From Tenacibaculum ovolyticum DSM 18103 (lineage in GTDB: Bacteria > Bacteroidota > Bacteroidia > Flavobacteriales > Flavobacteriaceae): a DNA stretch of 64,000 nucleotides. Location of the stretch: the NCBI RefSeq assembly GCF_000430545.1, contig NZ_KE387163.1:774439-838438 (forward strand), written 5' to 3'. The notes under the pieces are model-generated. The model saw only the letters and a list, made by a program, of their open reading frames with translations. It was not told the DNA's origin and made no database searches. The position numbers were made by a program, and so were the translations under genes. Of the stretch, positions 40,155-55,769 are shown piece after piece (position 1 is the stretch's first letter; each line of letters opens with the position of its first letter).

Positions 40155-41375
40155 ATGAAAAAAATATTAGGATTATGTTTAGTAGCTATTGCTATGACAT
40201 CATGTTCAGATGACAACGAAAACATTAAAGATACACCTACAAAAGCAAAGTTTATAGAAAACTATGCGAACATTGCTGCCGCTAATTATGATGATGCATA
40301 CACTACAGCAGTGACAATGAAAACTAAAATTGATGCTTTTTTAACTACACCAACTGAAGAAACACATAAAGCTGCGCAAAATGCTTGGTTATATGCAAGA
40401 GATTTTTATGGACAGACAGAAGCTTTTCGTGCTGCTAATGGTCCTATAGATAATGAAGATGCAGGATCTATTGAGGGTATATTAAATACTGAAGGTCGTA
40501 TTAATGCATGGCCTTTAGACGAAGGTTTTATCGATTATGTTTCTGATAACAAAGGAGGTGCAGTACAAAACGGTTTAATTGGTGATGTAACTTTCGATTT
40601 AACCGAAGCAAATATTATAGGTAAAAATGAATTTAACAATTTAGCAGATAATGTTGCTACTGGATGGCATGCTATTGAGTTTTTATTATGGGGACAAGAT
40701 TTAAATTATAACCCAACTACGCACATGCAAGATAATTATGCAGCAGCTGGGAAAAGAGGTTATACTGATTATACAACTGCTGATTTTGCTGAAAGAAGAA
40801 AGCAATATTTACAGATTGTAACTGATTTATTAGTTAATGATTTAAAAGATTTAAGAAATACTTGGGCTGATGGAGGTTTATACAGAACTGCATTTGCTAA
40901 ATTAAATGAAGCTACCGCTTTAAAAAACATTTTAAACGGTGTTGGTTTTATTTCTAACGGAGAAATTGCTTTAGAAAGAATTATACCAGCTGTAGAAGAA
41001 GGTCAAGAAAATGAACATTCTTGCTTTTCTGACAATACGAATCAAGATATGTGGGCTAACGTTAATGGAATTAACAATGTGATTATTGGTGCGTACAAAA
41101 GAGCTGATGGTACAAAAATATCAGGAGTTTCTTTAACTGCTATCACAAAAACTTTAAACGTAGAGATTTCTAATAACTTAGAAACAAAAGCGCAAACAAC
41201 TTTAGATAAATTAGATGCTCTTTTAGCTTTAAATAAAAGTTTTGATGAAATTATTTCTCAAGAAACACTTACCAGTAATGGACCAGCAATACAATTATCA
41301 AATGCTTTAAAAGCTCAAGGAGTTGCTATTGCAGAAGTTGCTACTACATTAGGGGTTAGCATTACGATAGATTAA
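40155..41375 (+). CDS. Imelysin family lipoprotein (IrpA/EfeO-M75-like), intact GxHxxE
   Basis: This 406-residue lipoprotein (signal ending at Cys17, IAMTSC) belongs to the imelysin/M75 family, which includes the iron-regulated IrpA of cyanobacteria and the M75 part of EfeO. The family motif GxHxxE is intact as GWHAIE (Gly170, His172, Glu175), followed by FLLWGQD. Other features are YARDFYGQTEAFR and a bundle of helices. It probably binds iron or a metal complex at the outer surface or periplasm. It is the first gene of the imelysin, di-heme, imelysin transcript and has the strong promoter with both operator copies. Terminator-like stem 41399-41431 follows, so it may be made in excess of the downstream genes. 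Confidence 0.87.
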   Translation: MKKILGLCLVAIAMTSCSDDNENIKDTPTKAKFIENYANIAAANYDDAYTTAVTMKTKIDAFLTTPTEETHKAAQNAWLYARDFYGQTEAFRAANGPIDNEDAGSIEGILNTEGRINAWPLDEGFIDYVSDNKGGAVQNGLIGDVTFDLTEANIIGKNEFNNLADNVATGWHAIEFLLWGQDLNYNPTTHMQDNYAAAGKRGYTDYTTADFAERRKQYLQIVTDLLVNDLKDLRNTWADGGLYRTAFAKLNEATALKNILNGVGFISNGEIALERIIPAVEEGQENEHSCFSDNTNQDMWANVNGINNVIIGAYKRADGTKISGVSLTAITKTLNVEISNNLETKAQTTLDKLDALLALNKSFDEIISQETLTSNGPAIQLSNALKAQGVAIAEVATTLGVSITID

Positions 41376-41450: not shown

Positions 41451-42860
41451 ATGAAAAATAATATTTTTTTTATTAGCATATTATTTATATTAATATCTTG
41501 TTCTAAAGATGATGATGTATATAAACCTGTTGAATTTGAATACGAATTAGGAGAAGAAAACTTAGTTTCAGAGTTATCTATAGAGGCTTTTAATGCCGAT
41601 AAAGCCTTTGGTAGAGGTATTCCTTCTTTATCTAATTTACAATCATCTTTTTTTGGTATTGGTGATGCTATGTTTAACCAAAGTTGGGTATCAGCTCCTG
41701 CTACAACAACATCTAGAGATGGTTTAGGTCCTATTTTTAATGCAAGAGCATGTAGTGCTTGTCATTTAAATGATGGAAGAGGTGAGCCAATTTTAGAAAC
41801 AGGTGCCAGTTCAAAAGGTTTATTAATCCGCTTAAGTACTGGTAACTCAATTACTACAGGTCCAGTTGGACATGGAGCGTATGGAGGGCAATTACAAGAT
41901 AAATCTAACCTAGGCATTAATAATGAAGCTGATATTCAAGTAGTTTTTTCTTATATAAAAGGTACGTATGCTGATGGTAGCACTTATGAATTAAGAAAAC
42001 CAAACTACACAATTATCAATGAAAATTACGGTAGTCTAGTTGGCGTACAAACATCTCCAAGAATAGGGCAACAATTAATTGGTCTTGGTTTTATAGATGC
42101 ACTTTCTGAAGCTAGTATTTTAGAAAATGCTGATCCCAATGATGCTAATAACGATGGAATTTCTGGAAGAGCAAATTATGTTTGGAATGTTAAAAAAGAT
42201 AAACTTACTATAGGTAAATTTGGGTGGAAATCAAACCAACCTACTCTAAACCAACAAGTAGCTGGCGCTTTTAATGGAGACATGGGCTTAACAACATCTA
42301 TTTTCCCAGATGAAAATTGCCCTGACGGAGTAGACTGTTCACAATTATTTAATGGTAATAACCCAGGAGAAGATGTTGAAGTACCAGATAAACAATTTAG
42401 CAGAATGGCATTATACATGGCTGCTATATCTGTACCAAAGAGAAGAAATTACAAAGAAGAGGCTGTACTTAAAGGAAAGAAAATTTTTAGAGATTTAAAA
42501 TGTGTCTCTTGTCACGTAGATAATTTTACAACAGGTACAAATGAAATTTTATCGCAGATAAATAATATTAAAATAAGTCCGTTTTCTGACTTTTTACTTC
42601 ATGATATGGGTAATGAATTAGCTGATAACAGAGCTGATTTTTTAGCTAGCGGTAATGAATGGAGAACACAACCTTTATGGGGATTAGGACTTATTGAAGC
42701 TGTAAATGGACATACATTTTTACTACATGACGGTAGAGCTAGAAACATAGAAGAAGCTATTTTATGGCATGGTGGGGAAGCTGAAAGCGCAAAAGAAAGC
42801 TTTAAGCAAAAAACAAAAACTGAACGAGAAGAATTATTACAATATTTAAACTCTTTATAA
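41451..42860 (+). CDS. Di-heme oxidoreductase family lipoprotein (DHOR)
   Basis: This 469-residue lipoprotein (signal ending at Cys17) has two c-type heme sites: CSACH (Cys101, Cys104, His105) and CVSCH (Cys351, Cys354, His355). Surrounding signatures, such as GLGPIFNARACSACHLNDGRG-like and QPLWGLGLIEAVNGHTFLLHDG-like segments (about 88-112 and 405-425), identify the di-heme oxidoreductase/DUF1111 family. Such proteins shuttle electrons in the periplasm. Between two imelysins, it may change the redox state of iron. Stop and next start are one base apart (42860/42862), so the genes are coupled. Confidence 0.88.
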   Translation: MKNNIFFISILFILISCSKDDDVYKPVEFEYELGEENLVSELSIEAFNADKAFGRGIPSLSNLQSSFFGIGDAMFNQSWVSAPATTTSRDGLGPIFNARACSACHLNDGRGEPILETGASSKGLLIRLSTGNSITTGPVGHGAYGGQLQDKSNLGINNEADIQVVFSYIKGTYADGSTYELRKPNYTIINENYGSLVGVQTSPRIGQQLIGLGFIDALSEASILENADPNDANNDGISGRANYVWNVKKDKLTIGKFGWKSNQPTLNQQVAGAFNGDMGLTTSIFPDENCPDGVDCSQLFNGNNPGEDVEVPDKQFSRMALYMAAISVPKRRNYKEEAVLKGKKIFRDLKCVSCHVDNFTTGTNEILSQINNIKISPFSDFLLHDMGNELADNRADFLASGNEWRTQPLWGLGLIEAVNGHTFLLHDGRARNIEEAILWHGGEAESAKESFKQKTKTEREELLQYLNSL

Positions 42861-42861: not shown

Positions 42862-43923
42862 ATGAAAAAAATATTATTAGGAATAATTATACTAACTGCT
42901 ATAATTACTTGCAAAAGCGAAGATGAAGAGCCTGTAATGAATACTAATTTTTTTGAAACTTATTACTCAGACAATATTTTACCAAGTATAAAGAACTTAA
43001 AAATAGCTCTAGAAACTCAACAGACCAATATTACAAATTTTCAAGCATCAAAGAGTAATGAAGATTATGAAAAATTACTTTCTCAATGGTTAACTTCTGC
43101 GAAAGCATATTCAAAATATGAAATCTATAATCTAGGAGTAATTAAAAAAAGTTTTTATAACATAAGCATCTATAACTATCCTGTAAACATTAGCGCTATT
43201 GAAAAAAACATTACAGATAAATCTATTTATAACGAATCATATTTTTCAACGCAAAGTACTACTGCAAAAGGGCTTGCTACTTTAGAATATTTACTTTTTG
43301 GTAATCAAAATTCTACTGAGGCTAAAACGCTTTTATTAAACGACTCGTATAGAATAGCTTATCTAGCTGGTGTTAATCAGGAACTTATTAGACTTACTAA
43401 TGCTATCATTGACACCTGGGAAAACGGTTATAAAGACACCTTTATAGCTGCTAATGGTTCTATTTGTACAAATAACGCTAAATGTTTAAGTATAAATCAA
43501 ATTATTAATGTGCTAGATGTAGCCAAAGTTACTAAAATTGGAAAAACAGCTGGTTTTGAAAAATCTAACAATACTGTTCTTACAAATTTACAAGCCTATA
43601 GAAGTAAAAACTCATTACTTTTAATACAAGCAATGTTAGCAGAAGTTAAAGATGTTTACTTTAATAGTAGCACTAATTTCGCAACTATGGTAAATGCTAT
43701 TAATACATCAGAAGAAATTTCAAACAAAATAGCTGCAAAATTTAGTGATATTGAACAAGAAGTTACAACTTTAAATAATACTCTTTTTGAAGCAATAAGT
43801 ACCAATCCAGAAAGTGTAAGATCTGTTTACAATAACTTAAGAGATTTAAGTATTTTATTCTCTGTAGATATAACAAGTACCTTATCTGTTACTGTACTTC
43901 CAACAGATAATGACGGTGATTAA
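42862..43923 (+). CDS. Imelysin family lipoprotein, divergent (lost GxHxxE)
   Basis: This 353-residue lipoprotein (signal ending at Cys17, ITC) aligns with the imelysin family in its helical layout, but the GxHxxE position reads GLATLEYLLFGNQ, so the His is replaced by Ala while Glu is kept. The last residues are PTDNDGD; the third imelysin at 51682 also ends in DNDGD. It starts one base after the di-heme gene, so the pair is cotranslated. A metal-binding role is less certain than in the first imelysin because of the missing His. Confidence 0.78.
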   Translation: MKKILLGIIILTAIITCKSEDEEPVMNTNFFETYYSDNILPSIKNLKIALETQQTNITNFQASKSNEDYEKLLSQWLTSAKAYSKYEIYNLGVIKKSFYNISIYNYPVNISAIEKNITDKSIYNESYFSTQSTTAKGLATLEYLLFGNQNSTEAKTLLLNDSYRIAYLAGVNQELIRLTNAIIDTWENGYKDTFIAANGSICTNNAKCLSINQIINVLDVAKVTKIGKTAGFEKSNNTVLTNLQAYRSKNSLLLIQAMLAEVKDVYFNSSTNFATMVNAINTSEEISNKIAAKFSDIEQEVTTLNNTLFEAISTNPESVRSVYNNLRDLSILFSVDITSTLSVTVLPTDNDGD

Positions 43924-43959: not shown

Positions 43960-44676
43960 TTATATGCTATCAAACAATAATTTTACATAACCTTCTTTTG
44001 GTTTTTCATAAACCTCTTTTGTTATTCCTTGTTGCAATACATTTCCGTTTTGTAATACTAATATTTCATCAGAAATTTCAATAGCATCTTTAATATCATG
44101 TGTAACAAAAATTGCAGTTGTATTTGTCTCCTTTAAGATTCTTTGAACGTCTTTACGTAACTGATTTCTTAAAATAACATCTAAATTACTAAAAGGTTCA
44201 TCTAAAATTAATAATTCAGGTTTTGGCGCTAATGCCCTTGCTAAAGCAACACGTTGTTGTTGTCCTCCTGATAATTCATGCGGGTAATTTTTCTCTTTAT
44301 CAGATAATCCTACTAAATCTAATACCTCTTTTACTCTTTCTTTCTTGTTTGGTAATTTAGAAATTCCATAAGCAATATTATCAAATATTGTAAAGTGAGG
44401 AAATAAAGCATAGTCTTGAAAAACCATCCCCACGTTTCTAAATTGTGGTTCTATAAAAACTGAATTTGAAGAAACCACCTTGTTTTTTAATGAAATAGTA
44501 CCTGAATCTAACACTTCTAACCCCGTTATTAAACGAATTAGTGTGGTTTTTCCACTTCCACTTTCTCCTACTATTGCAACAATATTTCCTTTAATTAAAG
44601 ACAAGGAAACATTATTTAGTGCAACAATATTTCCTTTATTAAATGTTTTTTTTACCTCTTTTACTTCTAATAACAT
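43960..44676 (-). CDS. Iron(III) ABC transporter ATP-binding protein (FbpC-like)
   Basis: This 238-residue ABC ATPase has Walker A GESGSGKTT (about 35-43), the Q-loop, the signature LSGGQQQR (about 133-140) and Walker B LLILDEPFS (about 154-162). It follows the permease gene by 7 bp and completes an FbpABC-type ferric iron uptake system with the permease (44684) and binding protein (46693). It is shorter than many FbpC proteins because the C-terminal regulatory domain is absent. Start ATG at 44676. Confidence 0.88.
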   Translation of the reverse strand: MLLEVKEVKKTFNKGNIVALNNVSLSLIKGNIVAIVGESGSGKTTLIRLITGLEVLDSGTISLKNKVVSSNSVFIEPQFRNVGMVFQDYALFPHFTIFDNIAYGISKLPNKKERVKEVLDLVGLSDKEKNYPHELSGGQQQRVALARALAPKPELLILDEPFSNLDVILRNQLRKDVQRILKETNTTAIFVTHDIKDAIEISDEILVLQNGNVLQQGITKEVYEKPKEGYVKLLFDSI

Positions 44677-44683
44677 AATTTAG

Positions 44684-46300
44684 TTAACTTTCTTTAGCTA
44701 TTAATCTATTTAAAAATAATATAGGTATTATTCCTGTTAAAATGATAAATAATGATGGCAATGCTGCTTCTGCAATTAACTCATCACTTGCATATTCATA
44801 TGCTTTAACAGCTAATGTATTTATGTGGTACGGCTTTAAAATTAAAGTTAAAGGCAGTTCTTTCATTACATCAACAAAAACCAAAATAAAAGCACTTAAT
44901 ATTGCTGGTTTTAATAGCGGAAATTCTATTCTTATAAATGTACTAATATTACTGCTTCCTAAAATTTTTGATACTTCCGATAATGAACCCCCAAATTTTA
45001 ACGTACTTGATTCTATAGGGTTGAAAGCTACTGCTAAAAACCGAACAATATAAGCATAAACTAAAACCATTATTGTTCCGTTTATTAAAAATCCAATCTT
45101 TACATCGAAAACATTCTTCATGAAAACCACTAACCATTTATCAAAAGATAATGTAGGTATTAAAACACCTACAGCAATTACTGCTCCAGGAATTGCATAC
45201 CCCAAAACACCTATTTTAGCAATTGACTTCATAAATGATAATCGATTCCATTTTGACAAAAAAATTAAAAGCAAAGAAAAAAACACCGTACAAAACGCTG
45301 AAATCATTGCTACTCCTAAACTCTCAAGTGATAAGTATATAAACTCAAAAGTAAACACTTCTTTATAGGTTAAAAATGCCCAATATAACAGTTGAAATAA
45401 CGGTAATATAAAACCAAATAACACTGGTATAAAGGCAATTGTAAAGAAAACCATTTTCAATTTATTGGAAATAGTTGCTCTTTTTACCTTTTGATGATTT
45501 TTAGTCGCGTTAAAATATCCTATTTTTCTTCGTTGCCATTTTTCTACCGATATTAATAAAAATATTATTGTTACTAAAATTGCTGACAAATAAATAGCGG
45601 TTTCTGGTTCTTCTAAAGAAAACCAAGCTCTAAAAATCCCTGTAGTAAATGTGTTTATACCATAATATTTAGCTGCTCCATAATCATTTAGTACTTCCAT
45701 CAAAACCAAAATTAAACCACCAATAAATGCAGGTCTTGCTAATGGTAAAATCAATTTAAAAAATGTTTTTCGCTCTCCTGCTCCTAATAATTTTGAAGCT
45801 TCTATTATATTATTAGATTGGTTTAAAAAGAAAGCTCTTGACGCTACATATACATAAGGGTATAATGAAATACTAAGCACAAAAATTAGTCCTAAATGAT
45901 TCATTACATCAATCTTAACACCAAGTACATTTTCTATAATTCCGCCATAATCAAAAATACCCGCATACGCATACGCCGTAATATATGAGGGAATTGCCAG
46001 TGGAAGTATTAATAGCCATTCTAATTGCTTTTTTAATGGAATATAATAACGAGAAACTATCCAGGCAGATGAAACACCTAAAAGTAAAGTTAAAATACTT
46101 GTACCAAAAATTAACAAAACTGAGTTTTTAATATAATTTGGTAATAAATTATCTACTAAATGATTCCATGTTTCACCCGGGCCATAAAGTAAATTAATAA
46201 AAACAGTAAGTATAGGAATAGCTACAAACAAAACAATGGTCAATAAAAATATTGACCATTTATTGGTATCTCTTTGTATGTTTTTAATACTATATTTCAC
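44684..46300 (-). CDS. Iron(III) ABC transporter permease (FbpB-like)
   Basis: This 538-residue double-length permease has two homologous halves, each with about six helices and an EAA-type loop (for example EASKLLGAGERKTFFKLILPLARPAFIGG). This is the FbpB/AfuB type found with ferric-binding proteins. It brings iron across the inner membrane. Stop is 7 bp before the ATPase gene, so they are cotranslated. A small membrane protein gene lies between it and the binding protein. Confidence 0.9.
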   Translation of the reverse strand: MKYSIKNIQRDTNKWSIFLLTIVLFVAIPILTVFINLLYGPGETWNHLVDNLLPNYIKNSVLLIFGTSILTLLLGVSSAWIVSRYYIPLKKQLEWLLILPLAIPSYITAYAYAGIFDYGGIIENVLGVKIDVMNHLGLIFVLSISLYPYVYVASRAFFLNQSNNIIEASKLLGAGERKTFFKLILPLARPAFIGGLILVLMEVLNDYGAAKYYGINTFTTGIFRAWFSLEEPETAIYLSAILVTIIFLLISVEKWQRRKIGYFNATKNHQKVKRATISNKLKMVFFTIAFIPVLFGFILPLFQLLYWAFLTYKEVFTFEFIYLSLESLGVAMISAFCTVFFSLLLIFLSKWNRLSFMKSIAKIGVLGYAIPGAVIAVGVLIPTLSFDKWLVVFMKNVFDVKIGFLINGTIMVLVYAYIVRFLAVAFNPIESSTLKFGGSLSEVSKILGSSNISTFIRIEFPLLKPAILSAFILVFVDVMKELPLTLILKPYHINTLAVKAYEYASDELIAEAALPSLFIILTGIIPILFLNRLIAKES

Positions 46301-46409
46301 AGGTTATTTCGTATATAATATTCTTATGACTGATAACATATCATGAAGAATTATATTAGTTTTTATTTTTAATAAAAATCACAAATAAGCAATATATTAC
46401 AATAAATAT

Positions 46410-46658
46410 CTATACATTATTTTTAGAATCTTCATCTTTTATTTCTTTTGGTTTTCTCCATAAAAGAAGACATACTCCCATCCAAAGTAGTACTATTACA
46501 ACCATTCCAATAAAAAACATATCTTGCCCTCTATCTAATGAATAGTCAAGTATTCCAAATATATAATACGCTAAAACAGCTATAAATATAACCTGACCTA
46601 CAAAGTAAGCTATTACTCCTTTTTTTGTTAAATATTTTAATACTAACGCTTCTAACAT
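46410..46658 (-). CDS. Small two-helix membrane protein in the Fbp operon
   Basis: This 82-residue protein has two transmembrane helices (about 14-33 and 44-64) and a short charged C-terminal tail. No family was recognised. It lies between the binding protein and permease genes (34 bp and 109 bp away) on the same strand, and may be a helper of the iron transporter. The frame is open to 46715, but the ATG at 46658 (MLEALVLKYL) is the more natural start; the upstream part overlaps the binding protein stop region. Confidence 0.55.
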   Translation of the reverse strand: MLEALVLKYLTKKGVIAYFVGQVIFIAVLAYYIFGILDYSLDRGQDMFFIGMVVIVLLWMGVCLLLWRKPKEIKDEDSKNNV

Positions 46659-46692
46659 TTTATTTTTTATTATTAAAAAAGTATCTACAAAA

Positions 46693-47724
46693 TTACTTCC
46701 AACCAGCAATATCAAAAGTTAATACCGCTTTTTTATTATTCTCTCCTAGTTTAGTTAGTGATAAAGTATCTTCTTTAAAACTTCCCCAAGACTCTAATAA
46801 ATATGACGGTGAAACTTCAGGATTTACTGGATATTCATAATTTGCTTTTGCAAATACTTTTTGTGATTTTTTACTTGCTAAAAACTCTATAAATTTAATT
46901 GCGTTTCCTTTATTGGGTGCGTATTTTGCTACTCCTGCCCCACTAACATTAATATGTGTTCCGCTATCATTTTGGTTAGGGAAAAATATTTTAACTCCTT
47001 TACCTGCTTTTACCTCTTCTGGGTTCTTAGAATTTAATAATTTACCAATATAATACGTATTAACTACTGCAATATCTCCTTCACCAGCAACAACAGCTTT
47101 TACTTGATCTCTATCGTTTCCTTTTGGTGAACGTGCCATATTAGCAACAATACCCTTTGCCCATTCTGCTGCTTTTTCTTCACCTTTATTCGCTATAATT
47201 GAAGCTAATAATGATTGATTATAGATATTACCTGATGAACGAATTAAAATTCTATTTTTCCATTTAGCCTCTGTTAAGCCTTCATAAGTCGTTAACTCTT
47301 CTTCGGTTACATTCTTTGGGTTGTACACAATAACACGTGCTCTTTTTGTTAAAGCAAACCAGTTATTATCTTTATCTTTTAAATGAGAAGGAATCGTTTT
47401 GTTCAAAAATTCTGAAGTAGCTGCTTGTAATAATCCTTTCTTTTTTGCTCTTACTAAACGACCAGCATCAACTGTTATTAAAACATCTGCTGGAGATTGC
47501 TCTCCTTCAAGGCTCATTTTTTGCATTAACTCATCAGCCTTTGCATTTACTACATTTACTTTAATTCCTGTTTCTTTTTCAAACTGTGCAAATAACTCTT
47601 GATCTGCTTTATAATGACGGTGCGTATATACATTTACTTCTTGTTTTTTAATTTCTTTTTTTTGTTCTGATTTACAAGAAAAAAGTACAATTGACGCTAT
47701 AAAAATTAATATGATTTGTTTCAT
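46693..47724 (-). CDS. Iron(III) ABC transporter substrate-binding lipoprotein (FbpA-like)
   Basis: This 343-residue lipoprotein (signal ending at Cys17, LFSC) belongs to the FbpA/transferrin-like ferric-binding proteins. It has the family pattern VYTHRHYKADQELFAQFEKE, then IAVVNTYYIGKLL, with the adjacent tyrosines that usually bind Fe3+. Two alpha/beta lobes are evident. It heads the fbpA, small protein, fbpB, fbpC operon. A partial copy of the iron-operator element is at 47781-47799, upstream of its start. Start ATG at 47724. Confidence 0.9.
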   Translation of the reverse strand: MKQIILIFIASIVLFSCKSEQKKEIKKQEVNVYTHRHYKADQELFAQFEKETGIKVNVVNAKADELMQKMSLEGEQSPADVLITVDAGRLVRAKKKGLLQAATSEFLNKTIPSHLKDKDNNWFALTKRARVIVYNPKNVTEEELTTYEGLTEAKWKNRILIRSSGNIYNQSLLASIIANKGEEKAAEWAKGIVANMARSPKGNDRDQVKAVVAGEGDIAVVNTYYIGKLLNSKNPEEVKAGKGVKIFFPNQNDSGTHINVSGAGVAKYAPNKGNAIKFIEFLASKKSQKVFAKANYEYPVNPEVSPSYLLESWGSFKEDTLSLTKLGENNKKAVLTFDIAGWK

Positions 47725-47780
47725 TTCTAAAATAATTTTGTTAAAATTTAAATTTTGTATTTACTATAAATACATTGCTC

Positions 47781-47799
47781 TATTTAGAATAAAAATAAA
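47781..47799. promoter_or_regulatory. Partial iron-operator element upstream of fbpA-like gene
   Basis: TATTTAGAATAAAAATAAA resembles the 24-bp element at 40064 and 54151 and lies about 55 bp ahead of the fbpA-like start. Similarity is weaker than in the other copies. Confidence 0.4.
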
Positions 47800-47805
47800 T
47801 GAAAT

Positions 47806-50277
47806 TTATATTTTAAATTCTAATGTTACATACCAATTTCTTGAAGATGATGGTATAATTCCAGGTCCTGGATAACCAGTTGCTCTACGTGTAAAATACT
47901 TCTCATCAAGTAAATTATTTATCCCTGCTTCTATCTTAAACATTTTATATTTATAAGATGTAGAAAAGTCTAATACATTATATGATGGAATCAATCCATT
48001 AATAGCACTAAAATCCGAAATAACAGAGTTTGAGGCATCTGTAAATTGCTCTCCTAAATATGTATATTGAAAACTAGTTAAAAAGTTTTTATAACCAAAC
48101 TTTACTCCTGTTTTTAAATTAAAATCTGGTACAAATTCTACTTGATTGCCCTTAACCCCATTGATCTGAGATTCAGTATATTTCGATTTAATAAACGAAG
48201 TATTAACAAAATAATTAAAACTAAAATCATTATTAATATCTAGTATTTTTTTCAGATTAAAATCAAACAAACTCTCAATACCTAAAATACGAGCTTTACC
48301 AACGTTTCCTCTCTCTAAAACAGCCCTCCCATCAGGTAATCCTTTTGATATTACACCGATTCTATCATTATAAAACAGCCCAAAAACACCTAGATCATAA
48401 GATATTAAACGCTTGTAATTTCCTCGCATTCCAAAATCAGAAGTATATCCTTTTTCATCACCAATTAACGGATTTATACTAAAAGATTGGTTTACTATAT
48501 TCAAATCTGAAAATGTTACAGAACGATAATTCTGAGATATATTTCCATAAAATTCCAAATTACTATTTGGTTTATAACTAGCTCCTATACCTAATAATAA
48601 AAAAGTACGTTGATTACTATCATTGCTATAGTCTGTTTCATTTAAGATAACATTACCAGCACCATCTCTGTTAATTTTTTTATAGAAACCATCACTTTCG
48701 GTTTTTATATATTCAAACCTAAAACCTGGAGTTATTGAAAATTTATCATTTAAATAGAATATATTTTCTCCGAAAACAGCAATATTCAAATTAGGGTTTG
48801 TGTAATTAGATTGGTTATTATAATCAGGGTAATTAGCTATAGCCGAAGAAAAATTTGCGTCAGCTCCATTAGTTCCAGGCCCTTGTATAGAAGTGTTTTC
48901 TGCTTTATAAAACTTTGTTCCTATTAAAAAAGTAGCTTTTTTATTAAAAATTGTGTACTTACTTAATATGCGAGATTCAAAACCAAAGTTTTTAAAATCA
49001 CCTGTAATTAAATCACGTTCATTATTATCATCTTCTTGATCAACACGATTTGTTCTATAACCAATAGTCTTTCTAGCAGCATCTAAACCGAATAAATTAA
49101 ATGTGAAATTGGTATTCTCTGAAAATTTATGTGATAATTTTAAATTATACAACAACCAATCTATTTGAAACCAATTTCTAGTTCTATTACTTTGTAATGG
49201 GTTTTCATTAAACATAGCATCTGTTAAACCACCTCCTTGGTGTGCTAGATATGTTAAATAGGTAACTTCTGCTTCTAATTTAGTACTATTGTTAAATTCA
49301 TAACCTAAATGCGCAAAGGCATTTTTAGAGTGAAATTCAGAGTTTGGACGAAATCCATCTCCTTGTTTATAATTATAATAAGCAAAGTAACTAAACTTAT
49401 TTTTTGTACCGCTTACACTCGTAAAATTTGTAAATAAATTATTACTTCCTAAAGTATTTCTAGTAATAATTTCTAATGGTTCATTAGCATTTGGTTTTTT
49501 CATTACAAAATTTACCAAACCTCCAAACTGTGTACCGTATTGTAATGAAGCAGCACCACGAACAATTTGAATTTTCTCTAATGCTTCTGCCGGAGGCGTA
49601 TAATAACTCTCGGGGTACCCTAATACATCTGCGCTAATATCGTAACCGTTTTGACGGGTATTAAAATTAGAAGTTCTATTAGGATCTAAACCTCGACCAC
49701 CAATATTTAATTGTAAACCTGCATCGTCATTTTGAAAAATATTTAACCCCACAACTTGGCTATAAATTTGACGTGCATTATTTGATGCTAAAGCAGCAGA
49801 AGTTTCGCTTACTAAAACTACTTCATTTTTTTTCCCTGCAAATATTGCAGTTTGTTCTACATCTTTTAAACGTGTTAATTCAAATACCTTTCTACGTTGT
49901 GCTTTTATTACTATTTCAGTTAATTCTTCAGTAAAAGATTGTAGCTTTATATTTAAAATAAGGTTTTTAGTTACAACTATTTCTTGTTCTTTTAACTGAA
50001 ATTCATTCGCATAAAAAACCACAATAAATTTTTGTTTATCTGTAGTGTATTGATATAATCCTTTTGAATTTGTTACCGCAAGTAATTTCCCTGATTTTGC
50101 ATAAATCTTAACTTTATTTAAAGGCACATTTTTTTCTGAAGTTATAACTCCAGATACTTTATGTTGTGCATAAATTGTTGTTGAAAACAACAAAAACACG
50201 ATTGCTAAAACTTTTAATATACTCTGATTAAATTTAGAACACTTACACTTGTATTTGAACATATTTTTAAAGTCCAT
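47806..50277 (-). CDS. FecA-like TonB-dependent receptor
   Basis: This outer-membrane receptor of about 823 residues has a carboxypeptidase-regulatory-like beta-sandwich (about 35-115), a plug domain (about 120-240) and a 22-strand barrel. The plug signatures GLNIFQNDDAG, NIGGRGLDPN and EKIQIVRGAASLQYGTQFGG match FecA-type ferric citrate receptors. It lies 10 bp overlapping the HTTM gene end, in an operon running from the third imelysin through HTTM to this gene. The frame continues upstream to 50352, inside HTTM. ATG at 50277 (MDFKNMFKYK) or at 50262 (MFKYK) are the likely starts; 50277 is listed because it overlaps the HTTM stop. Confidence 0.88.
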   Translation of the reverse strand: MDFKNMFKYKCKCSKFNQSILKVLAIVFLLFSTTIYAQHKVSGVITSEKNVPLNKVKIYAKSGKLLAVTNSKGLYQYTTDKQKFIVVFYANEFQLKEQEIVVTKNLILNIKLQSFTEELTEIVIKAQRRKVFELTRLKDVEQTAIFAGKKNEVVLVSETSAALASNNARQIYSQVVGLNIFQNDDAGLQLNIGGRGLDPNRTSNFNTRQNGYDISADVLGYPESYYTPPAEALEKIQIVRGAASLQYGTQFGGLVNFVMKKPNANEPLEIITRNTLGSNNLFTNFTSVSGTKNKFSYFAYYNYKQGDGFRPNSEFHSKNAFAHLGYEFNNSTKLEAEVTYLTYLAHQGGGLTDAMFNENPLQSNRTRNWFQIDWLLYNLKLSHKFSENTNFTFNLFGLDAARKTIGYRTNRVDQEDDNNERDLITGDFKNFGFESRILSKYTIFNKKATFLIGTKFYKAENTSIQGPGTNGADANFSSAIANYPDYNNQSNYTNPNLNIAVFGENIFYLNDKFSITPGFRFEYIKTESDGFYKKINRDGAGNVILNETDYSNDSNQRTFLLLGIGASYKPNSNLEFYGNISQNYRSVTFSDLNIVNQSFSINPLIGDEKGYTSDFGMRGNYKRLISYDLGVFGLFYNDRIGVISKGLPDGRAVLERGNVGKARILGIESLFDFNLKKILDINNDFSFNYFVNTSFIKSKYTESQINGVKGNQVEFVPDFNLKTGVKFGYKNFLTSFQYTYLGEQFTDASNSVISDFSAINGLIPSYNVLDFSTSYKYKMFKIEAGINNLLDEKYFTRRATGYPGPGIIPSSSRNWYVTLEFKI

Positions 50278-51631
50278 TAATTTTAATTTTATTGGTAAAA
50301 GGTAATATCCATTTTTTGTGTTTAAAACCTTCCTTTTGTTGATATAAATCAATATTTGAATTTATATACGATTCACTTAAACGGCCATTTAATGCTACAA
50401 AACTCTCTACATATACTTCTATATTTTTATGTCCGTCATTTTTAAAATGATCTCCTAAATAATGTGCATATTCTAAAATAAAATCGGGCTGAAAACTCAT
50501 TTGTTTTTCTTGATATGTTGTTAAAAAATCGGTATTATCAACATAAAAAAAATCACCTGTTTTACCATCTACTATTTTAAAACTTGCATAACCTGCCTTT
50601 TCCATTAACATTACTCGCCAAGAAAACCGATATCCTTCTTCTGTCCAAAATAACTCTCCAGGATATAATAAGTATCGCCAAGGCATTAAAAGTTGAATTA
50701 TTAAAAATACACCAACTGTTACCGTAATCGTTTTTCTTTTTGCATTTGTATACTGGTAATTAGCAATACTTTGTATTTTTTCTGTGGGTAATTTAAAAAC
50801 ACGTTTTATATTATTGATTATTTTCTCATGGAATGTACCTTCAAAGAAAATAAGTGTTGCTATTATCATTATAAACGGAAACATTCCGATAGGAAATAAA
50901 ATTCGAGTAAACACATGAAAAAAGACAACTAATGTAAAAGCCAATAAGCGTGTTCTTTTCCATAATAATAAAAAAGGAATGCTTAAATCATATAACGCTC
51001 CGCTCCAACTCATTGCATAATGAAACCATTCTTGTTGCATTAGGTTATTTCCTATAAACGGTATATCGTACTTTGATGGTAACCATATTTTTAATGGCAT
51101 TGCTCTAAATAACCAATCGGAATTTAACTTTGCCAATCCTGCATAAAAATAAACAATTCCTAATAAGAGCTTTATACTATCTATTGTCCATTTTGGAATG
51201 TTTTTAAATTCTTTTTTTAAAAGAAAACTATCTAATGAGAAGTATTTGTTTGCTGGTAAAAAAATTAATAAAAAACTTAATAAACTTATAAAATAATAAT
51301 GGTTTAAATAAGTTGTTTTATCCATTAGTTCAATATAAGTAAAACTTAAAAAGAAAAAAATAATTGCCAATCTATACTTGTAACCTATCGTTATAAATAT
51401 TGCTGATAAACCACATAAAATAAAAAGTAGATAGGTATAGGTTCCTATTGGTTGTACCCATTCAAAACCATAATATGTAAAATGAAACTTAGGTTCTAAG
51501 TATAATTTTTCTATCCATCCATTATACCAAAACCTAATAATGCTGGCAAGCATCATTATACCAAATAAAATACGAAAAACCGCTAAAGGAGCGGCATTTG
51601 TTTGATTCTTTATATATTTTTCTTTGGCCAT
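50267..51631 (-). CDS. HTTM domain (vitamin K-dependent gamma-carboxylase-like) membrane protein
   Basis: This 454-residue polytopic protein has the HTTM/VKG-carboxylase layout: four hydrophobic helices in the first half (for example FRILFGIMMLASIIRFWYNGW) and a long soluble C-terminal part after about 290. The family includes the vertebrate gamma-glutamyl carboxylase; bacterial members mostly have no known function. It sits in an operon with a ferric receptor and an imelysin, which suggests modification of, or helper action for, the iron-uptake lipoproteins. Start ATG at 51631, just after a stem-loop. The stop overlaps the receptor start. Confidence 0.8.
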   Translation of the reverse strand: MAKEKYIKNQTNAAPLAVFRILFGIMMLASIIRFWYNGWIEKLYLEPKFHFTYYGFEWVQPIGTYTYLLFILCGLSAIFITIGYKYRLAIIFFFLSFTYIELMDKTTYLNHYYFISLLSFLLIFLPANKYFSLDSFLLKKEFKNIPKWTIDSIKLLLGIVYFYAGLAKLNSDWLFRAMPLKIWLPSKYDIPFIGNNLMQQEWFHYAMSWSGALYDLSIPFLLLWKRTRLLAFTLVVFFHVFTRILFPIGMFPFIMIIATLIFFEGTFHEKIINNIKRVFKLPTEKIQSIANYQYTNAKRKTITVTVGVFLIIQLLMPWRYLLYPGELFWTEEGYRFSWRVMLMEKAGYASFKIVDGKTGDFFYVDNTDFLTTYQEKQMSFQPDFILEYAHYLGDHFKNDGHKNIEVYVESFVALNGRLSESYINSNIDLYQQKEGFKHKKWILPFTNKIKINGL

Positions 51632-51639
51632 TAATTATA

Positions 51640-51666
51640 AAAAGCTGCCCAAATAGGACAGCTTTT
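51640..51666 (-). terminator. Stem-loop between third imelysin and HTTM genes
   Basis: Arms AAAAGCTGCCC (51640-51650) and GGACAGCTTTT (51656-51666) form a stem with one mismatch and a T-run on the minus strand. It probably gives partial termination, with read-through to HTTM and the receptor. Confidence 0.6.
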
Positions 51667-51681
51667 ATTTTTTATCTTTTA

Positions 51682-52797
51682 TTAATCTCCGTCATTATCT
51701 ACATACCCAGCATCTAAGCTTATACCAAATGCTTGCATCATACCTACTTTTAAAGATATTATATTTTTTTGTAGTTCATCAAATGCTTTTGTCATTACTA
51801 CATTATTGCTTGTAATTTGTTCAGTAAAGTTATCACCTAGCGTATTAATTTGCGTTCTCGCATTATCAAATTGACTATTTATTGATGTTCCTAAATCATT
51901 TCTATCTAAAGCTATTAAATATGCTTTAAAGCCTAATTTCTCAACATTAGAAGCTCCAAAATTCTTTCCATTAAAAAAGTCCTGTGATGCATCTAACGCT
52001 TCTAAAGCCAATTCTTTTGAAAAGTTCTTTTGGTAAAAAGCTTCTACCTTGTTAGGAAAAGTTGTTCCTCCTGAGAAACTACCTACTGGAATACCAAATT
52101 TATTACTCCTGATACCTTTTTCATAATGAAAAACATAGTCATTCACTATTTTATTAACTGAAGCTGTTCCTGAATTCCCTGAATTATTTACAAAAGAATC
52201 TCTAAATGCCCCATTCCAATCACTAACTACAAGAGTCATAACTTCACTCATTTTAGCTACAACATCTGTAAGGTATTTTTTATACTTTACAGCATCTACT
52301 CCTGTATATTTTGCTACGATTGCTGTATCATCTACTGCAACTCCGTAAAACAAATAATCTAACGCAGGAAATCCTATTTCATCTTTTGAATTAGTATGTG
52401 ATAAATCATATGTACCACTCGTTATATTTGTTTCAACTTGAGCAACGTTAGTAGGAAAAATATTAAAGTAATTTACAAATTGTAATTCTTCCGCCTTACC
52501 TATATTAAACATAGCTACGTGCTGCCAAGCTTTATATGCGCTATTATAAGAAACACGAACATCTTGTAAGGTAATGATGCTTGGTGTACTATTATAAGTT
52601 GTTGTTTTTTCTTTTAAAACAATTAACTTATCATTAAACTCTTTAAAAGCAGGTATAATGATATCATCAGCCATATGTGTTAACATTGCTTTTCTATCAA
52701 AATTATCTGCTGGTGTTGGGTTGTCTGAATTAGAACTGCTACAAGCATAAACCGTTATAGCAACAACTAAAATTAAAATTATTTTCTTCATAATCAT
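51682..52797 (-). CDS. Imelysin family lipoprotein, third copy, divergent
   Basis: This lipoprotein of 369-371 residues has a signal ending at Cys17 of the MKKII start and the helical imelysin layout. The GxHxxE position reads GFPALDYLFYG, with no His and Asp for Glu, so metal binding would need other residues. The C-terminus ends DNDGD, like the imelysin at 42862. Two ATGs in frame (52797 and 52791) are both plausible; the second gives MKKIIL. A TATATTTG promoter box and an iron-operator-like element lie directly upstream. Confidence 0.78.
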   Translation of the reverse strand: MIMKKIILILVVAITVYACSSSNSDNPTPADNFDRKAMLTHMADDIIIPAFKEFNDKLIVLKEKTTTYNSTPSIITLQDVRVSYNSAYKAWQHVAMFNIGKAEELQFVNYFNIFPTNVAQVETNITSGTYDLSHTNSKDEIGFPALDYLFYGVAVDDTAIVAKYTGVDAVKYKKYLTDVVAKMSEVMTLVVSDWNGAFRDSFVNNSGNSGTASVNKIVNDYVFHYEKGIRSNKFGIPVGSFSGGTTFPNKVEAFYQKNFSKELALEALDASQDFFNGKNFGASNVEKLGFKAYLIALDRNDLGTSINSQFDNARTQINTLGDNFTEQITSNNVVMTKAFDELQKNIISLKVGMMQAFGISLDAGYVDNDGD

Positions 52798-52803
52798 TAT
52801 TCC

Positions 52804-52833
52804 TATTTATTCTAAATAAATTATGCAAATATA
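52804..52833 (-). promoter_or_regulatory. Promoter and operator of third imelysin gene
   Basis: The minus strand has TATATTTG (52826-52833) as -7 box. The element TATTTATTCTAAATAAA (52804-52820), related to the 24-bp iron operator, lies between it and the start codon, overlapping the transcription start. No TTG is well spaced. Confidence 0.5.
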
Positions 52834-52835
52834 AA

Positions 52836-52866
52836 AAAAAGTAGCTGTTTAAGACAGCTACTTTTT
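52836..52866 (-). terminator. Terminator after DUF4856 gene
   Basis: Arms AAAAAGTAGCTGT (52836-52848) and ACAGCTACTTTTT (52854-52866) form a strong stem. It overlaps the promoter of the next gene, so the two iron units share this region. Confidence 0.8.
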
Positions 52867-52886
52867 AATAAAATATATTTTTCAAA

Positions 52887-54086
52887 TTAATTTACAGTTT
52901 CTGCTACTGTAAAATTAAACTTAGCTGCTATTTTACTAGAAACAGCATCTAATGTAGCTACGGTTGAAGCTTCCCACAACCCGTTACCTGTATCTAATAA
53001 ATCGCTTAAGTATCCATCAATCTCAGCTTTTGTAAAGTATGAACTTGCACTATTAGATTTACGTGTAAATTGTAAACTATAAAGAAATCCTAAACCTTCT
53101 GAAAGATCATGAAAAGCTGCTGCTTTATCAGTAGCTAATAATGTTTTACCTGCTTGTAAATAATGAACTGTTCTAATAGCTATTACTTCTGATATTTTTT
53201 CACGTATAATTTCTGCTTGTTTATCACGTAATGTATAATCTTTAGCTACAATTGCTGCTCTACCCAACTTAAATGCATCATAAATACTTTTTGCAACACC
53301 TGCAAAATCTGAATCGGCTTCAACTTTCCCTAAATATTTATTTAAAAAACTGTCTGCACCCAAAACTGGAACTGCTGGATTAGCTTCATTACCATACAAG
53401 TAACCATAAGCTTCGTCCCATTTATGTTCCATTGTAGTATAGTCTTTACCTGTAGCAACAGTACTTGCATTATTATCTGCAATATTTGTACCTGCATCTA
53501 AAACCGCAGAACTTAAATAATTATTTAATATTTGATCAGTCATTAAAGCACCTATTAAACCTTTTGCAAAAATTTGATTTAATTCTACTCCTTTGCCATT
53601 AATATATCTTGCTGTACCACTATTTTGCTCTAACTTCCCTGCTATTCCTGCAACTGCATTAGCAGTCCAATTTGGATATACATCAGCTACTTGTTCAGTT
53701 ATCCAAGAATCGAATTTTGCTTTAATTGCGTTTGCATCAGTAGTATTAGCAGCAAAAAAATCAGCAGATGCTGCAACTTTACTACGTACACTTTTACTTG
53801 AGGTATTTAAATCTGCATCAGAAAAATCTGCATTACCTGCAGTATGTGCAAACATTCCATTTAACGCAACTTCAGTTTTGGTTTCATCTTTTAAGGCAGA
53901 TGCTAACTCTGTTGCCATTTTAATACGCGTTGTTTGCCCCGAAAAACTAACAGAAGAGTTTCCGTTTCTTTCAAACTTATATGTTGTTGGTGCTGTAACG
54001 TTATTAATTGGTGTATCTCCATCACTAGAACAAGATGTAAATACTAAAGCTGATATAGCTAATACTGAAAAAACAACTTTCTTCAT
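52887..54086 (-). CDS. DUF4856 domain lipoprotein
   Basis: This 399-residue lipoprotein (signal ending at Cys19, FTSC) matches DUF4856 in size and in segments such as TTMEHKWDEAYGYLYG and YLQAGKTLLATDKAAAFHDLSEGLGFLYSL, which also recall imelysin helices. DUF4856 proteins are often neighbours of imelysin and HTTM genes in Bacteroidota. It has a perfect promoter (TTG, 19 nt, TAGATTTG) with two operator copies, like the first imelysin. It is probably an iron-regulated surface protein; the biochemical role is unknown. Start ATG at 54086. Confidence 0.78.
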   Translation of the reverse strand: MKKVVFSVLAISALVFTSCSSDGDTPINNVTAPTTYKFERNGNSSVSFSGQTTRIKMATELASALKDETKTEVALNGMFAHTAGNADFSDADLNTSSKSVRSKVAASADFFAANTTDANAIKAKFDSWITEQVADVYPNWTANAVAGIAGKLEQNSGTARYINGKGVELNQIFAKGLIGALMTDQILNNYLSSAVLDAGTNIADNNASTVATGKDYTTMEHKWDEAYGYLYGNEANPAVPVLGADSFLNKYLGKVEADSDFAGVAKSIYDAFKLGRAAIVAKDYTLRDKQAEIIREKISEVIAIRTVHYLQAGKTLLATDKAAAFHDLSEGLGFLYSLQFTRKSNSASSYFTKAEIDGYLSDLLDTGNGLWEASTVATLDAVSSKIAAKFNFTVAETVN

Positions 54087-54087
54087 T

Positions 54088-54174
54088 TTATTTAGATTTA
54101 ATTTTAATAAATTTATGCAAATCTATGTAACAAATCTAATCTATCAAATTTTATTTGGATTTATTTTAAATAAA
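54088..54174 (-). promoter_or_regulatory. Promoter and two operator copies of DUF4856 gene
   Basis: On the minus strand, TTG (54145-54147), 19 nt and TAGATTTG (54118-54125) form the promoter. A 24-bp operator copy at 54151-54174 differs from the 40124 copy (opposite strand) at one base of 24; a second copy at 54088-54111 matches at about 22 of 24. One lies just upstream of -33 and the other near the start codon, the same architecture as at 40064-40147. Confidence 0.65.
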
Positions 54175-54215
54175 AACAAGCAATTTTATTACATTATCAA
54201 ATAAACTGAAAGGCT

Positions 54216-55769
54216 CTATATTTTTTTCAAATGACTAATAACAGCACGTCTAATATCATAACCTAAATCAGATGCATTTGGTTTATATATAGCAAGTATA
54301 TTGGGGTTTTTATCTGATAACATAGGAATATCTAATCCTCTTAATAAGTAATCAGAAAAAGCTACTTTATAAACTTCGTTATCGCTTATTACCTTATTAT
54401 TTATTATCCATTCATTACCTTTTTTACTAACATTATAACGTTGTAAATAAGCACCAGTACCAGTAGCCTTCAATCCGTAATCTAAAACATCTTTAAGTAA
54501 AACTCCTTTTATATCAACTTTTAAGATTGCTCCACCGTATGGTAAAACTCTAAAGATATCTACAATATTAACATCTCCTTCTAAAATATCGTCAATACGA
54601 ACAGAACCTCCGTTTACCAAGGCACAATCAACTTTATCATCATAAGCCAAACTCATAGCTTTTGTAATGATTTTTCCCATATTGGTTTGAACACTTCTAA
54701 TTTCAGTTTCTCTAGCTTCTAATGGAATTGTTGCCTTATATATTACTTCATAAGGGTTTGATACAATATCTTGTATCTGCATTTTTAACTTCTTTTGCCA
54801 TTTATCAACAATTGCCCCTACTTTTTTATTTGCAGTAATTTTATCGTTAATTTCCTTTAATTCTGACTTTAATTTTACTTTTTTTGTAATTGGATCATAC
54901 TCAAAACGATGAATATAAGCTGTTTTAGCATTCGCATCAGCTTTTGCTATAACTGTATTTCCTATACTATCATAACTATTAGCATGCTCATGCCCTCCCA
55001 TTATTAAAGGAACATTTGGCAATAGTTCAGCAACTTTCTTATCTTGATCAAGTGTTAAGTGTGTTAAACCTATAACAATATCTACCTTATTTTTAACTTC
55101 ATTATATGATTTTTTAATTTCTTCATAGATATCTCCATAATACACATAACTACGAGGGTTTGAAGGAATACATGCACTTATAAAACCGACTTTTAATTTT
55201 GTACCATCAGCATTATCAAACTCTTTTATGTATGAATTTTTTAAATATTCTTTTTTTCCGTTGATTACTTTATGAAAGTATTCATGATTCCCATCTTTAT
55301 TGTGAAAAGTATTTGCCGAAATCCAATTAAATTTACTTTCATTTAATCTTTTTTGCAAGCTAGAGTAGCTCAAATCAAACTCATGATTACCAAAAGCTAC
55401 AAGGTCGAAATTCATTGCATTCATAACCTCAATCATTTGTTTACCTCTAACTCTTTCTCCGTCTATTTTCATAGTACCTATTAAAGATGGATTTAAAAAA
55501 TCTCCTGCCAAAACAAGCATTGTATTTTTATCTTCTTTTAATAAATTTTGATGAACAGTTTCAACTCTTGCCATTCCTCCAAATTGCCCTCCTTGAATTG
55601 ACGCAATCTCATAAACATCGTTTAACTGAAGTATATTAAAATATGTTTTACTTGCTTCTTTTTTAAAACGAGATACAGGTTCTGATATTTTTTGTGTGTT
55701 TTTTTTAAAATTACAACTAACAATTAAAGCAGTCAATACTGCTATAAATAATAATTTAAAATGGTTCAT
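54216..55769 (-). CDS. 5'-nucleotidase-family bifunctional metallophosphatase lipoprotein
   Basis: This lipoprotein of 517 residues (signal ending at Cys19, IVSC) has an N-terminal metallophosphatase domain (about 40-290; QLNDVYEI, GDFLNPS, GNHEFD, GGHEH) and a C-terminal 5'-nucleotidase domain (about 340-510; ALVNGGSVRIDDI, VLPYGGAILKV). It probably releases phosphate or nucleosides from nucleotides at the surface. The first metal motif is LNDVYEI where many members have NDxHG. ATG at 55769 (MNHFKLL) is used instead of an upstream TTG. The HExxH protein gene ends 33 bp upstream. Confidence 0.85.
   Translation of the reverse strand: MNHFKLLFIAVLTALIVSCNFKKNTQKISEPVSRFKKEASKTYFNILQLNDVYEIASIQGGQFGGMARVETVHQNLLKEDKNTMLVLAGDFLNPSLIGTMKIDGERVRGKQMIEVMNAMNFDLVAFGNHEFDLSYSSLQKRLNESKFNWISANTFHNKDGNHEYFHKVINGKKEYLKNSYIKEFDNADGTKLKVGFISACIPSNPRSYVYYGDIYEEIKKSYNEVKNKVDIVIGLTHLTLDQDKKVAELLPNVPLIMGGHEHANSYDSIGNTVIAKADANAKTAYIHRFEYDPITKKVKLKSELKEINDKITANKKVGAIVDKWQKKLKMQIQDIVSNPYEVIYKATIPLEARETEIRSVQTNMGKIITKAMSLAYDDKVDCALVNGGSVRIDDILEGDVNIVDIFRVLPYGGAILKVDIKGVLLKDVLDYGLKATGTGAYLQRYNVSKKGNEWIINNKVISDNEVYKVAFSDYLLRGLDIPMLSDKNPNILAIYKPNASDLGYDIRRAVISHLKKI

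Follow-up and report, generated by a model that had tools for sequence, protein, structure and literature searches.

The operon and its enzyme

The stretch of DNA analyzed here (the window) comprises 64,000 nucleotides of contig NZ_KE387163.1 of Tenacibaculum ovolyticum DSM 18103, a member of the Flavobacteriaceae. It contains an operon of four genes which encode, in the order of transcription, a DUF4856 lipoprotein, an imelysin lipoprotein, an HTTM enzyme related to the human vitamin K-dependent gamma-carboxylase (GGCX) and a TonB-dependent receptor (table 1). The first two genes are separated by 89 bp and the imelysin gene ends 50 bp upstream of the enzyme gene, which had been correctly placed after it in a first-pass annotation made from the sequence alone. 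That annotation also described the enzyme as fused by overlapping codons to a FecA-like receptor. With the receptor starting at the ATG at 50277, its reading frame runs 11 bases into the enzyme gene, across the stop, and the genes are therefore overlapping, not fused. The protein is indeed a TonB receptor, but the FecA label is a loose one: it scores 98.5 bits against a cut-off of 1100 for the FecA equivalog of NCBIfam, outside that family.

The enzyme matches PF05090 (HTTM; E = 9e-79) and PF22777 (VKGC lumenal domain; E = 2.6e-60) of Pfam, and against the solved human GGCX chains its residues 8-445 align with human residues 56-505 (E = 2.4e-43), with the catalytic Lys and His present. It is thus a true GGCX homologue, as the animal relationship proposed earlier had implied, and the only PF05090 match at E <= 0.001 across its own genome. 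The protein ends nine residues past the end of the alignment; since the latter stops at residue 505 of the 758 of human GGCX, the second propeptide lobe is missing. Two VKOR-like matches were also observed in the genome (C8:2051-2422 and C14:91494-91865, in frames of 532 and 542 aa).

Table 1. Features of the operon and the surrounding locus in the window, and hydroxylase genes beside enzyme-less operons of other genomes
Feature	Position	Strand	Remarks
DUF4856 lipoprotein	52887..54086	-	first gene of the operon
Imelysin (M75) lipoprotein, IPPA-type	51682..52797	-	motif GFPALD, not GxHxxE; tail DNDGD
HTTM + VKGC lumenal-domain enzyme, 454 aa	50267..51631	-	ATG start; stop at 50269-50267
TonB-dependent receptor	47806..50277	-	carboxypeptidase-regulatory-like N-terminus; listed ORF (open reading frame) extends to TTG at 50352
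Fur-box-like site	54153..54171		3 mismatches; 67 bp upstream of DUF4856 start
Fur-box-like site	47782..47800		3 mismatches; upstream of solute-binding protein gene
Fur-box-like site	40067-40085		upstream of neighboring imelysin unit
Fur-box-like site	40127-40145		upstream of neighboring imelysin unit
Fur-box-like site	39943-39961		1 mismatch; upstream of neighboring imelysin unit
Solute-binding lipoprotein, SBP_bac_6 type	46693..47724	-	Tyr224-Tyr225
ABC transporter permease	44684..46300	-	
ABC transporter ATPase	43960..44676	-	name from sequence by eye
Canonical imelysin, neighboring unit	40155..41375	+	motif GWHAIE
Di-haem oxidoreductase (DUF1111/DHOR, PF06537), neighboring unit	41451..42860	+	
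Second imelysin, neighboring unit	42862..43923	+	motif GLATLE; also tail DNDGD
FA_hydroxylase-family gene by HTTM-less operon	L272:7749-8699	-	
FA_hydroxylase-family gene by HTTM-less operon	L271:9943-10890	-	
FA_hydroxylase-family gene by HTTM-less operon	L282:2343-3311	+	

Conservation and phylogeny

PF22777 matches are present in 115 of the 149 family genomes and in 82 of 395 genomes from the phylum, the latter set having been drawn independently of the presence of the operon. Among these 395 genomes, 69 of the 96 VKGC-domain matches (in 68 genomes) are accompanied on their strand by an imelysin match no more than 3 kb away. Imelysin occurs in 72 of 82 VKGC-domain genomes and in 18 of the 313 without the domain (Fisher test, 3e-50), and DUF4856 in 53 and 5 of them, respectively; such p-values overstate independence because the genomes are related. 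We also collected 161 loci, a partly chosen set made up of 80 picked from the matches listed, the best 80 named loci of at least 557 relatives and the window, in which two or more records are entered twice (L102/L193 and L126/L195). An imelysin gene lies directly upstream of the enzyme in 106 of them, a receptor gene directly downstream in 105, and both in 103. DUF4856 was detected above 50 bits in 88 loci; in 18 of the 103 full arrangements it was not, some of these having a weak DUF4856-like match of 30-41 bits at that place. Counts such as 69 of 96 and 103 of 161 indicate that the association between imelysin and enzyme is more than chance. Among the matches listed, carriers include Flavobacterium, Maribacter, Kordia, Pontibacter, Hymenobacter, Algoriphagus, Flammeovirga, Fodinibius and metagenome-assembled genomes of Thermochlorobacteriaceae and Rhodothermaceae. 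No Leptospira locus appeared among the best 80 of at least 557 relatives.

A quick maximum-likelihood tree with midpoint root was built from 161 rows including human GGCX, of which 159 were distinct; one locus (L186, 647 aa, its row exceeding 600 aa) had been removed beforehand and is absent from the residue counts as well. A branch with a support of 99 in the Shimodaira-Hasegawa-like approximate likelihood ratio test (SH-aLRT) has 111 rows on one side, that is, 108 operon enzymes and three solitary ones. The operon label requires four changes on the tree, against a mean of 44.8 when shuffled. The solitary enzymes of class A (L096, L122 and L217) are encoded away from imelysin and receptor genes. 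A second VKGC-like class of Flavobacteriaceae, class B (L080-L099 minus L083 and L096), resides in a housekeeping cluster between genes resembling ribF and serS, each of which was seen in 20 loci (names taken from the starts of the sequences), and these neighborhoods gave no hint of a substrate. For the solitary enzymes of other phyla, none of the 25 neighbor clusters listed was common to more than three loci.

Active site

The structural literature on human GGCX, cited here from excerpts as are all papers given by PMC number, describes K218 as the base, N159, H160 and Y395 as gripping the Glu side chain, N158 and R436 as gripping the Gla backbone, and F286, F294, F299, H160, V210, M401 and W223 as the naphthoquinone pocket; K217 couples the membrane domain to the propeptide domain, and without it the substrate is bound less well but catalysis is not weakened (PMC12589487). 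L394 and W399 fall within the older glutamate-binding stretch 393-404 (PMC5343777).

The window enzyme aligns its K168, H111, N110 and Y334 with K218, H160, N159 and Y395. Residues were counted in 108 operon enzymes, 23 of class B and 26 other solitary ones, the three solitary enzymes of class A being in none of these groups. K218, H160 and N159 are invariant in all 108 operon enzymes, so that the absence of active-site residues, the first of the two results that together, for the first-pass annotation, would have overturned its proposal, is not observed. F286, F294, F299 and W223 are equally invariant, and likewise A214, W390, W399, M402, D263 and H287. With V210 a Val in 99 of 108 and M401 replaced by Val throughout, five of the six naphthoquinone-pocket positions tested are kept (F286, F294, F299, W223 and V210). 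The position of Y395 holds Tyr in 93 and Phe in 15 operon enzymes; it is His in all 23 of class B and in 25 of 26 other solitary enzymes.

Other residues, among them those of peptide and propeptide recognition, had a different fate. N158 is Leu in 108 of 108 operon enzymes (also in 24 of 26 other solitary ones), R436 is Arg in none, and in 107 of 108 each N290 is replaced by Thr, K217 by Ala and L394 by Gly. The C99-C450 disulfide is replaced, Y425 is Tyr in only 46 of 108, and the propeptide-binding second lobe is absent. This pattern suggests that quinone chemistry and the holding of a carboxylate have been kept, and recognition of peptide and propeptide has not.

Probable iron control

The window was searched, allowing up to three mismatches, for the Fur box of a Riemerella anatipestifer study (PMC5609570). 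Six matches at five places were obtained, against a mean of 0.53 and a maximum of 3 in shuffled sequence. At the same threshold, 70 of 101 operon promoters carry a Fur-box-like site, compared with 5 of 2,020 shuffled sequences (of 102 eligible promoters one was dropped as too short, and the window's own was excluded). A Fur box in the promoter is a feature of Fur regulons, to which the operon would accordingly be assigned.

In the excerpted Table 4 of the Riemerella study, consecutive tags list a TonB receptor, a 'vitamin K-dependent gamma-carboxylase', an imelysin and a hypothetical protein, with ratios of wild type without to with iron of 2.11, 2.64, 3.07 and 2.41, respectively, and of the fur deletion to wild type, both with iron, of 1.90, 1.39, 1.93 and 1.36 (PMC5609570). 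As the former ratios exceed the latter, the effect of iron is clearer than that of fur in these data. We assume that the hypothetical protein is the DUF4856 protein. Together, the promoters and the iron response in Riemerella support the reading of the locus as an iron-uptake operon of the Fur type, which the first-pass annotation had already called an iron-uptake operon. The outer-membrane vesicles of Tenacibaculum maritimum are described as containing abundant amounts of a FecA homologue and of four imelysin-like lipoproteins (PMC10288586).

Partner proteins

The imelysin of the operon (PF09375, E = 2.8e-19) gave a model with a predicted local distance difference test (pLDDT) score of 92.7, whose best structural match is 3pf0 (E = 1.8e-8). 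It belongs to the IPPA branch of the imelysin superfamily, with a GxxxxE-type motif devoid of His: among 106 operon imelysins, the His position is Pro in 81 and the last motif residue is Asp in 85 and Glu in 14. Their C-terminus is far more uniform, the final residue being Asp in 106 of 106 and the ending DGD in 105. In our model this tail has low confidence (pLDDT 58 to 44), and the corresponding end of the IPPA crystal, residues 384-389, is given as disordered (PMC3143127).

The string D-x-D-G-D-stop has two matches in the 4.12 Mb of the genome, which are the imelysins at 42862-43923 and 51682-52797, and the backward control gave one. Among open reading frames of at least 80 aa in the loci examined, all 144 with [DS]xDGD endings are imelysins, a count in which overlapping loci enter some genes repeatedly. 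We considered the tail as proof that the imelysin is the substrate and rejected it, for HTTM-less operons, DUF1111-linked imelysins and the IPPA of Psychrobacter carry it too. Since it occurs without the HTTM enzyme, the tail marks a branch of imelysins and not the enzyme.

Two Glu residues of the imelysin are well conserved, E226 in 100 and E252 in 106 of 106 sequences. The highest number of Glu within 45 residues is 4 in the imelysin, 4 in the DUF4856 protein and 7 in the receptor of the window, no cluster resembling a Gla domain; orthologues reach 9, 10 and 11, with medians of 6, 6 and 7. For the DUF4856 protein a confident and mainly helical model was obtained, with conserved residues around EHxWDEA and HxLSE. 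No solved relative of it was found, and Foldseek gave no match under E = 1. Its resemblance to imelysin structures is weak: superposition on 3n8u (Z 4.7, 143 residues aligned, root-mean-square deviation 4.8) and 4ecg (Z 4.0, 157 aligned, 5.6) is surpassed by unrelated helical bundles, and a profile comparison with imelysin aligned 38 columns, at the signal peptide only.

Operons without the enzyme

Eighty genomes were taken as free of PF22777, a status partly inferred from their absence among the matches listed, and imelysin was found in eight of them. Two (G002 and G016) have the order DUF4856-imelysin-receptor without the enzyme, and a third case was found in G617 (locus L282), of the same genus as G002. 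None of the three genomes has a full HTTM match, that of G002 scoring 25.3 bits, below the cut-off. In G016, a gene of the FA_hydroxylase family (PF04116, E = 1.1e-23, with His-box motifs) occupies the very slot of the enzyme, with imelysin on one side and the receptor on the other. G002 and G617 have its homologue immediately past the receptor on the opposite strand, in G002 with a small haem-binding-domain gene between. Members of PF04116 are usually di-iron enzymes that use O2. At E <= 1e-40 the hydroxylase has homologues in 6 of 299 genomes of the family; the other three (that of the window, G033 and G639) all carry the HTTM gene, and no imelysin or receptor was detected within 1.5 kb on either side of their hydroxylase genes. 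The putative substitution thus concerns three genomes of two genera, with the exact slot occupied only in G016 (91% complete, 220 contigs), and is suggestive rather than proven because the other three genomes place the hydroxylase elsewhere and carry HTTM. The homologue in the window's own genome (C8, 175321-176256) is 48% identical. In G016 we also observed a tailed imelysin split into two frames of 288 and 94 aa, beside a canonical imelysin and a DUF1111 gene (L255, L263 and L273).

Residue changes were compared in two of the enzyme-less operons (L271 and L272; L282 was found later). Of the columns conserved in at least 93%, 6 of 29 in imelysin, 1 of 25 in DUF4856 and 6 of 157 in the receptor are changed in one or the other. 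A search for a substrate site among these changes yielded none.

The wider locus

The operon adjoins, in the window, a unit of the order imelysin-DUF1111-imelysin (40155-43923), so that the two neighboring imelysin systems differ in their oxidative enzyme. Most other imelysins examined adjoin a di-haem DUF1111 gene, with an exception in G501. An oxidative enzyme beside imelysin, whether HTTM, FA_hydroxylase or DUF1111, is a common pattern.

A planctomycete (L153) is the outermost row of the operon side of the tree. Its genes (L153:75-5341) follow the order imelysin (GWHAIE), DUF1111, imelysin (tail SPNDGD) and HTTM, and no receptor homologue was detected within the 13.3 kb examined. As this outermost row has imelysin and no receptor was found, the link to imelysin is the deepest one, and the pairing with a tailed imelysin may be older than that with the receptor, as suggested by this one deep row. 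The operon of L153 may also connect the two types of imelysin unit. The next gene there, on the opposite strand, is cytochrome c peroxidase-like (named from sequence).

Downstream of the receptor, genes for a solute-binding lipoprotein and an ABC transporter follow (table 1). All NCBIfam matches of the lipoprotein fall below cut-off. A Tyr-Tyr pair is a ferric-binding motif in solute-binding proteins, and from this pair, the neighbors and the Fur-like site the ligand is probably ferric. Upstream of the operon lies a gene for a 5'-nucleotidase/metallophosphoesterase lipoprotein (54216-55796), relatives of which occur near the operon at several other loci, for example L060, L063 and L067.

Proposed function and alternatives

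We tentatively propose that the enzyme matures an iron-uptake protein encoded in its operon, most likely the imelysin, using menaquinol and O2. This is our preferred but by no means secure reading; the grade applies to the statement as a whole, of which homology, catalytic residues, gene order and Fur-box-like promoters were computed here. Under iron limitation, a Fur-controlled operon would produce the two lipoproteins, the enzyme and the receptor. The enzyme would reside in the inner membrane, with its active site probably on the periplasmic side, like the endoplasmic reticulum-lumen side of GGCX. There Lys168 may deprotonate menaquinol, which with O2 would give rise to a strong-base intermediate and end as menaquinone epoxide, as the intact residues lead one to expect. 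Asn110, His111 and Tyr334 would hold a carboxylate of the substrate, and the base would drive its modification, most simply a carboxylation; carboxylation of Glu is possible. The most likely target is the imelysin encoded upstream, at a buried acidic residue or in its exposed acidic C-terminal tail, and the modified protein might then bind or hand over ferric iron. Imelysin appears the better candidate partner. DUF4856, which the first-pass annotation had included, seems a less likely target, since it was not detected above 50 bits in 18 of the 103 full arrangements.

Several observations weigh against this proposal. The usual substrates of FA hydroxylases are lipids or small molecules, and a stand-in of this kind would favor a substrate other than a protein. 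The homologue of Leptospira, to our knowledge the only bacterial one that has been tested biochemically, was reportedly described by Rishavy et al. in 2005 as an epoxidase without detectable carboxylase. Furthermore, 14 of the 82 VKGC-domain genomes have no imelysin match beside the VKGC gene. The DGD tail is also present on imelysins that neighbor DUF1111 and not HTTM (L222, L224, L229 and L230), and the IPPA of Psychrobacter ends in STDGD. No Glu is found among the changed conserved columns of L271 and L272, and the DGD tail is kept in all three HTTM-less operons; nothing in the partners therefore tracks the enzyme. Finally, a receptor gene of the imelysin-containing MliR regulon of Bizionia, which may or may not belong to an operon of the present type, is reported to be upregulated with added ferric citrate (PMC9478572).

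The main alternative is that the enzyme is an epoxidase or other oxidative enzyme acting on something other than a protein, such as a lipid, a lipid anchor or a small chelator of iron that the receptor imports. We regard this as doubtful, though a serious competitor: the possible stand-ins in three operons belong to a family of mostly lipid and small-molecule enzymes, the residues that hold the peptide backbone in GGCX are not conserved, and the Leptospira enzyme is said to be an epoxidase only. The retention of N159 and H160 in 108 of 108 and of Tyr or Phe at Y395 speaks against it, however, and among the open reading frames of 44000-58000, eight of which were searched against libraries, no chelator-synthesis gene was noticed. 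The first-pass annotation had suggested that Glu residues of the imelysin and DUF4856 lipoproteins alike might be carboxylated, to Gla, for metal binding, which partly overlaps our proposal. The GGCX homology and the iron-uptake operon on which that suggestion leaned have held; of the Glu-gripping residues N159 and H160 are kept and Y395 is Tyr or Phe, and the suggestion would suit the conserved E226 and E252 and the orthologues with up to 9, 10 and 11 Glu in 45 residues (imelysin, DUF4856 and receptor). On the other hand, N158, R436, K217 and L394, along with the disulfide and the propeptide lobe, are altered or lost, no 45-residue stretch of the window lipoproteins contains more than 4 Glu, conserved Glu columns persist where the enzyme is absent, and DUF4856 is not always detected; in this full form the suggestion seems unlikely.

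A non-catalytic role as a structural element or chaperone, such as an inner-membrane dock for imelysin, would accommodate the operon-specific changes of M401 to Val, N290 to Thr and N158 to Leu. It is improbable given the invariance of K218, H160, N159 and the pocket Phe and Trp residues in 108 of 108 enzymes, unexpected for a dead enzyme. Still less probable is that menaquinol oxidation is itself the end, serving as a quinone-epoxide signal or removing O2 near labile iron, with a merely regulatory link to iron. Conserved quinone-site residues and Fur-box-like promoters agree with such a redox gauge, and the two VKOR-like proteins might recycle the quinone. Nevertheless, it leaves unexplained why the gene is immediately flanked by those of imelysin and receptor in 103 of 161 loci, and bacterial VKORs studied by the time of one report are stated there not to reduce the epoxide (PMC4555120).

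A bolder version of the maturation proposal concerns the tail, and we consider it a long shot that stands or falls as one. The DxDGD ending of the IPPA-type imelysin would be a built-in, siderophore-like iron ligand whose chemical maturation requires an oxidative enzyme. Through the menaquinol strong base, the enzyme of the GGCX type would carboxylate a tail Asp (or Glu), the FA-hydroxylase stand-in of some relatives would hydroxylate Asp, and the DUF1111 enzyme would serve the sister imelysins. If true, beta-carboxy- or beta-hydroxy-aspartate in the protein would form an Fe(III) site specified by the gene, and vitamin-K carboxylation would have its origin in the iron chemistry of bacteria.

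Whichever substrate applies, the old question of what bacterial relatives of GGCX do becomes directly testable in an operon found widely within one bacterial phylum, as the catalytic residues are intact, the named partners are few, the enzyme family is apparently induced by lack of iron and natural operons lacking the enzyme exist. It could reveal the physiological substrate of a bacterial GGCX homologue, perhaps an ancestral use of the chemistry, and would help to explain the frequent presence of oxidative enzymes beside imelysins, whose function is unsettled.

Comparison with known systems

Like human GGCX (PDB 9bvk, 9l20, 9wf2 and others), the window enzyme has the HTTM and lumenal domains, the base, the His and the pocket; unlike it, it lacks the second propeptide lobe, the jelly roll and the arch, and its operon relatives have replaced K217, N158, R436, L394, M401, N290 and the C99-C450 disulfide. 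The enzyme said to be an epoxidase in Leptospira is likewise a bacterial GGCX homologue. The receptor shares with FecA the TonB barrel and plug and the link to iron, at a score far below the FecA cut-off. In MbnP-MbnH, a metal-binding protein is matured by a co-encoded oxidative enzyme; there the metal is copper, the enzyme di-haem and the target a tryptophan. We take this pair as a model of how a protein and its maturing enzyme might work together.

In the open PMC literature, the Riemerella Fur paper was the only one found in which imelysin and gamma-carboxylase occur together; in its excerpts the gamma-carboxylase gene is listed in the Fur regulon and its role is not commented on (PMC5609570). 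We found no paper there linking HTTM with imelysin or naming DUF4856, and a human-genetics review was the lone match for a bacterial HTTM carboxylase. The GGCX/HTTM family is known; what we call new, because no other paper pairing imelysin and gamma-carboxylase was found, is the apparent commitment of one branch to an iron-uptake operon, with an active-site signature of its own.

Imelysin units are described from Leptospira (lruB/LIC10711-10714), Pseudomonas (PA4370-4372) and EfeUOB as linked to iron or Fur and adjoined by an oxidative enzyme, with a TonB receptor nearby in Leptospira (PMC3143127, PMC13066512, PMC7567364), where the unit is also upregulated with peroxide (PMC7567364). The unit at 40155-43923 of the window is of the type described for lruB in Leptospira and for Pseudomonas (PMC3143127, PMC7567364, PMC13066512, PMC8638967). 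The operon beside it differs from these units in two respects: its oxidative enzyme is of the GGCX type instead of a di-haem DUF1111 protein, and its imelysin carries GFPALD where theirs have GxHxxE.

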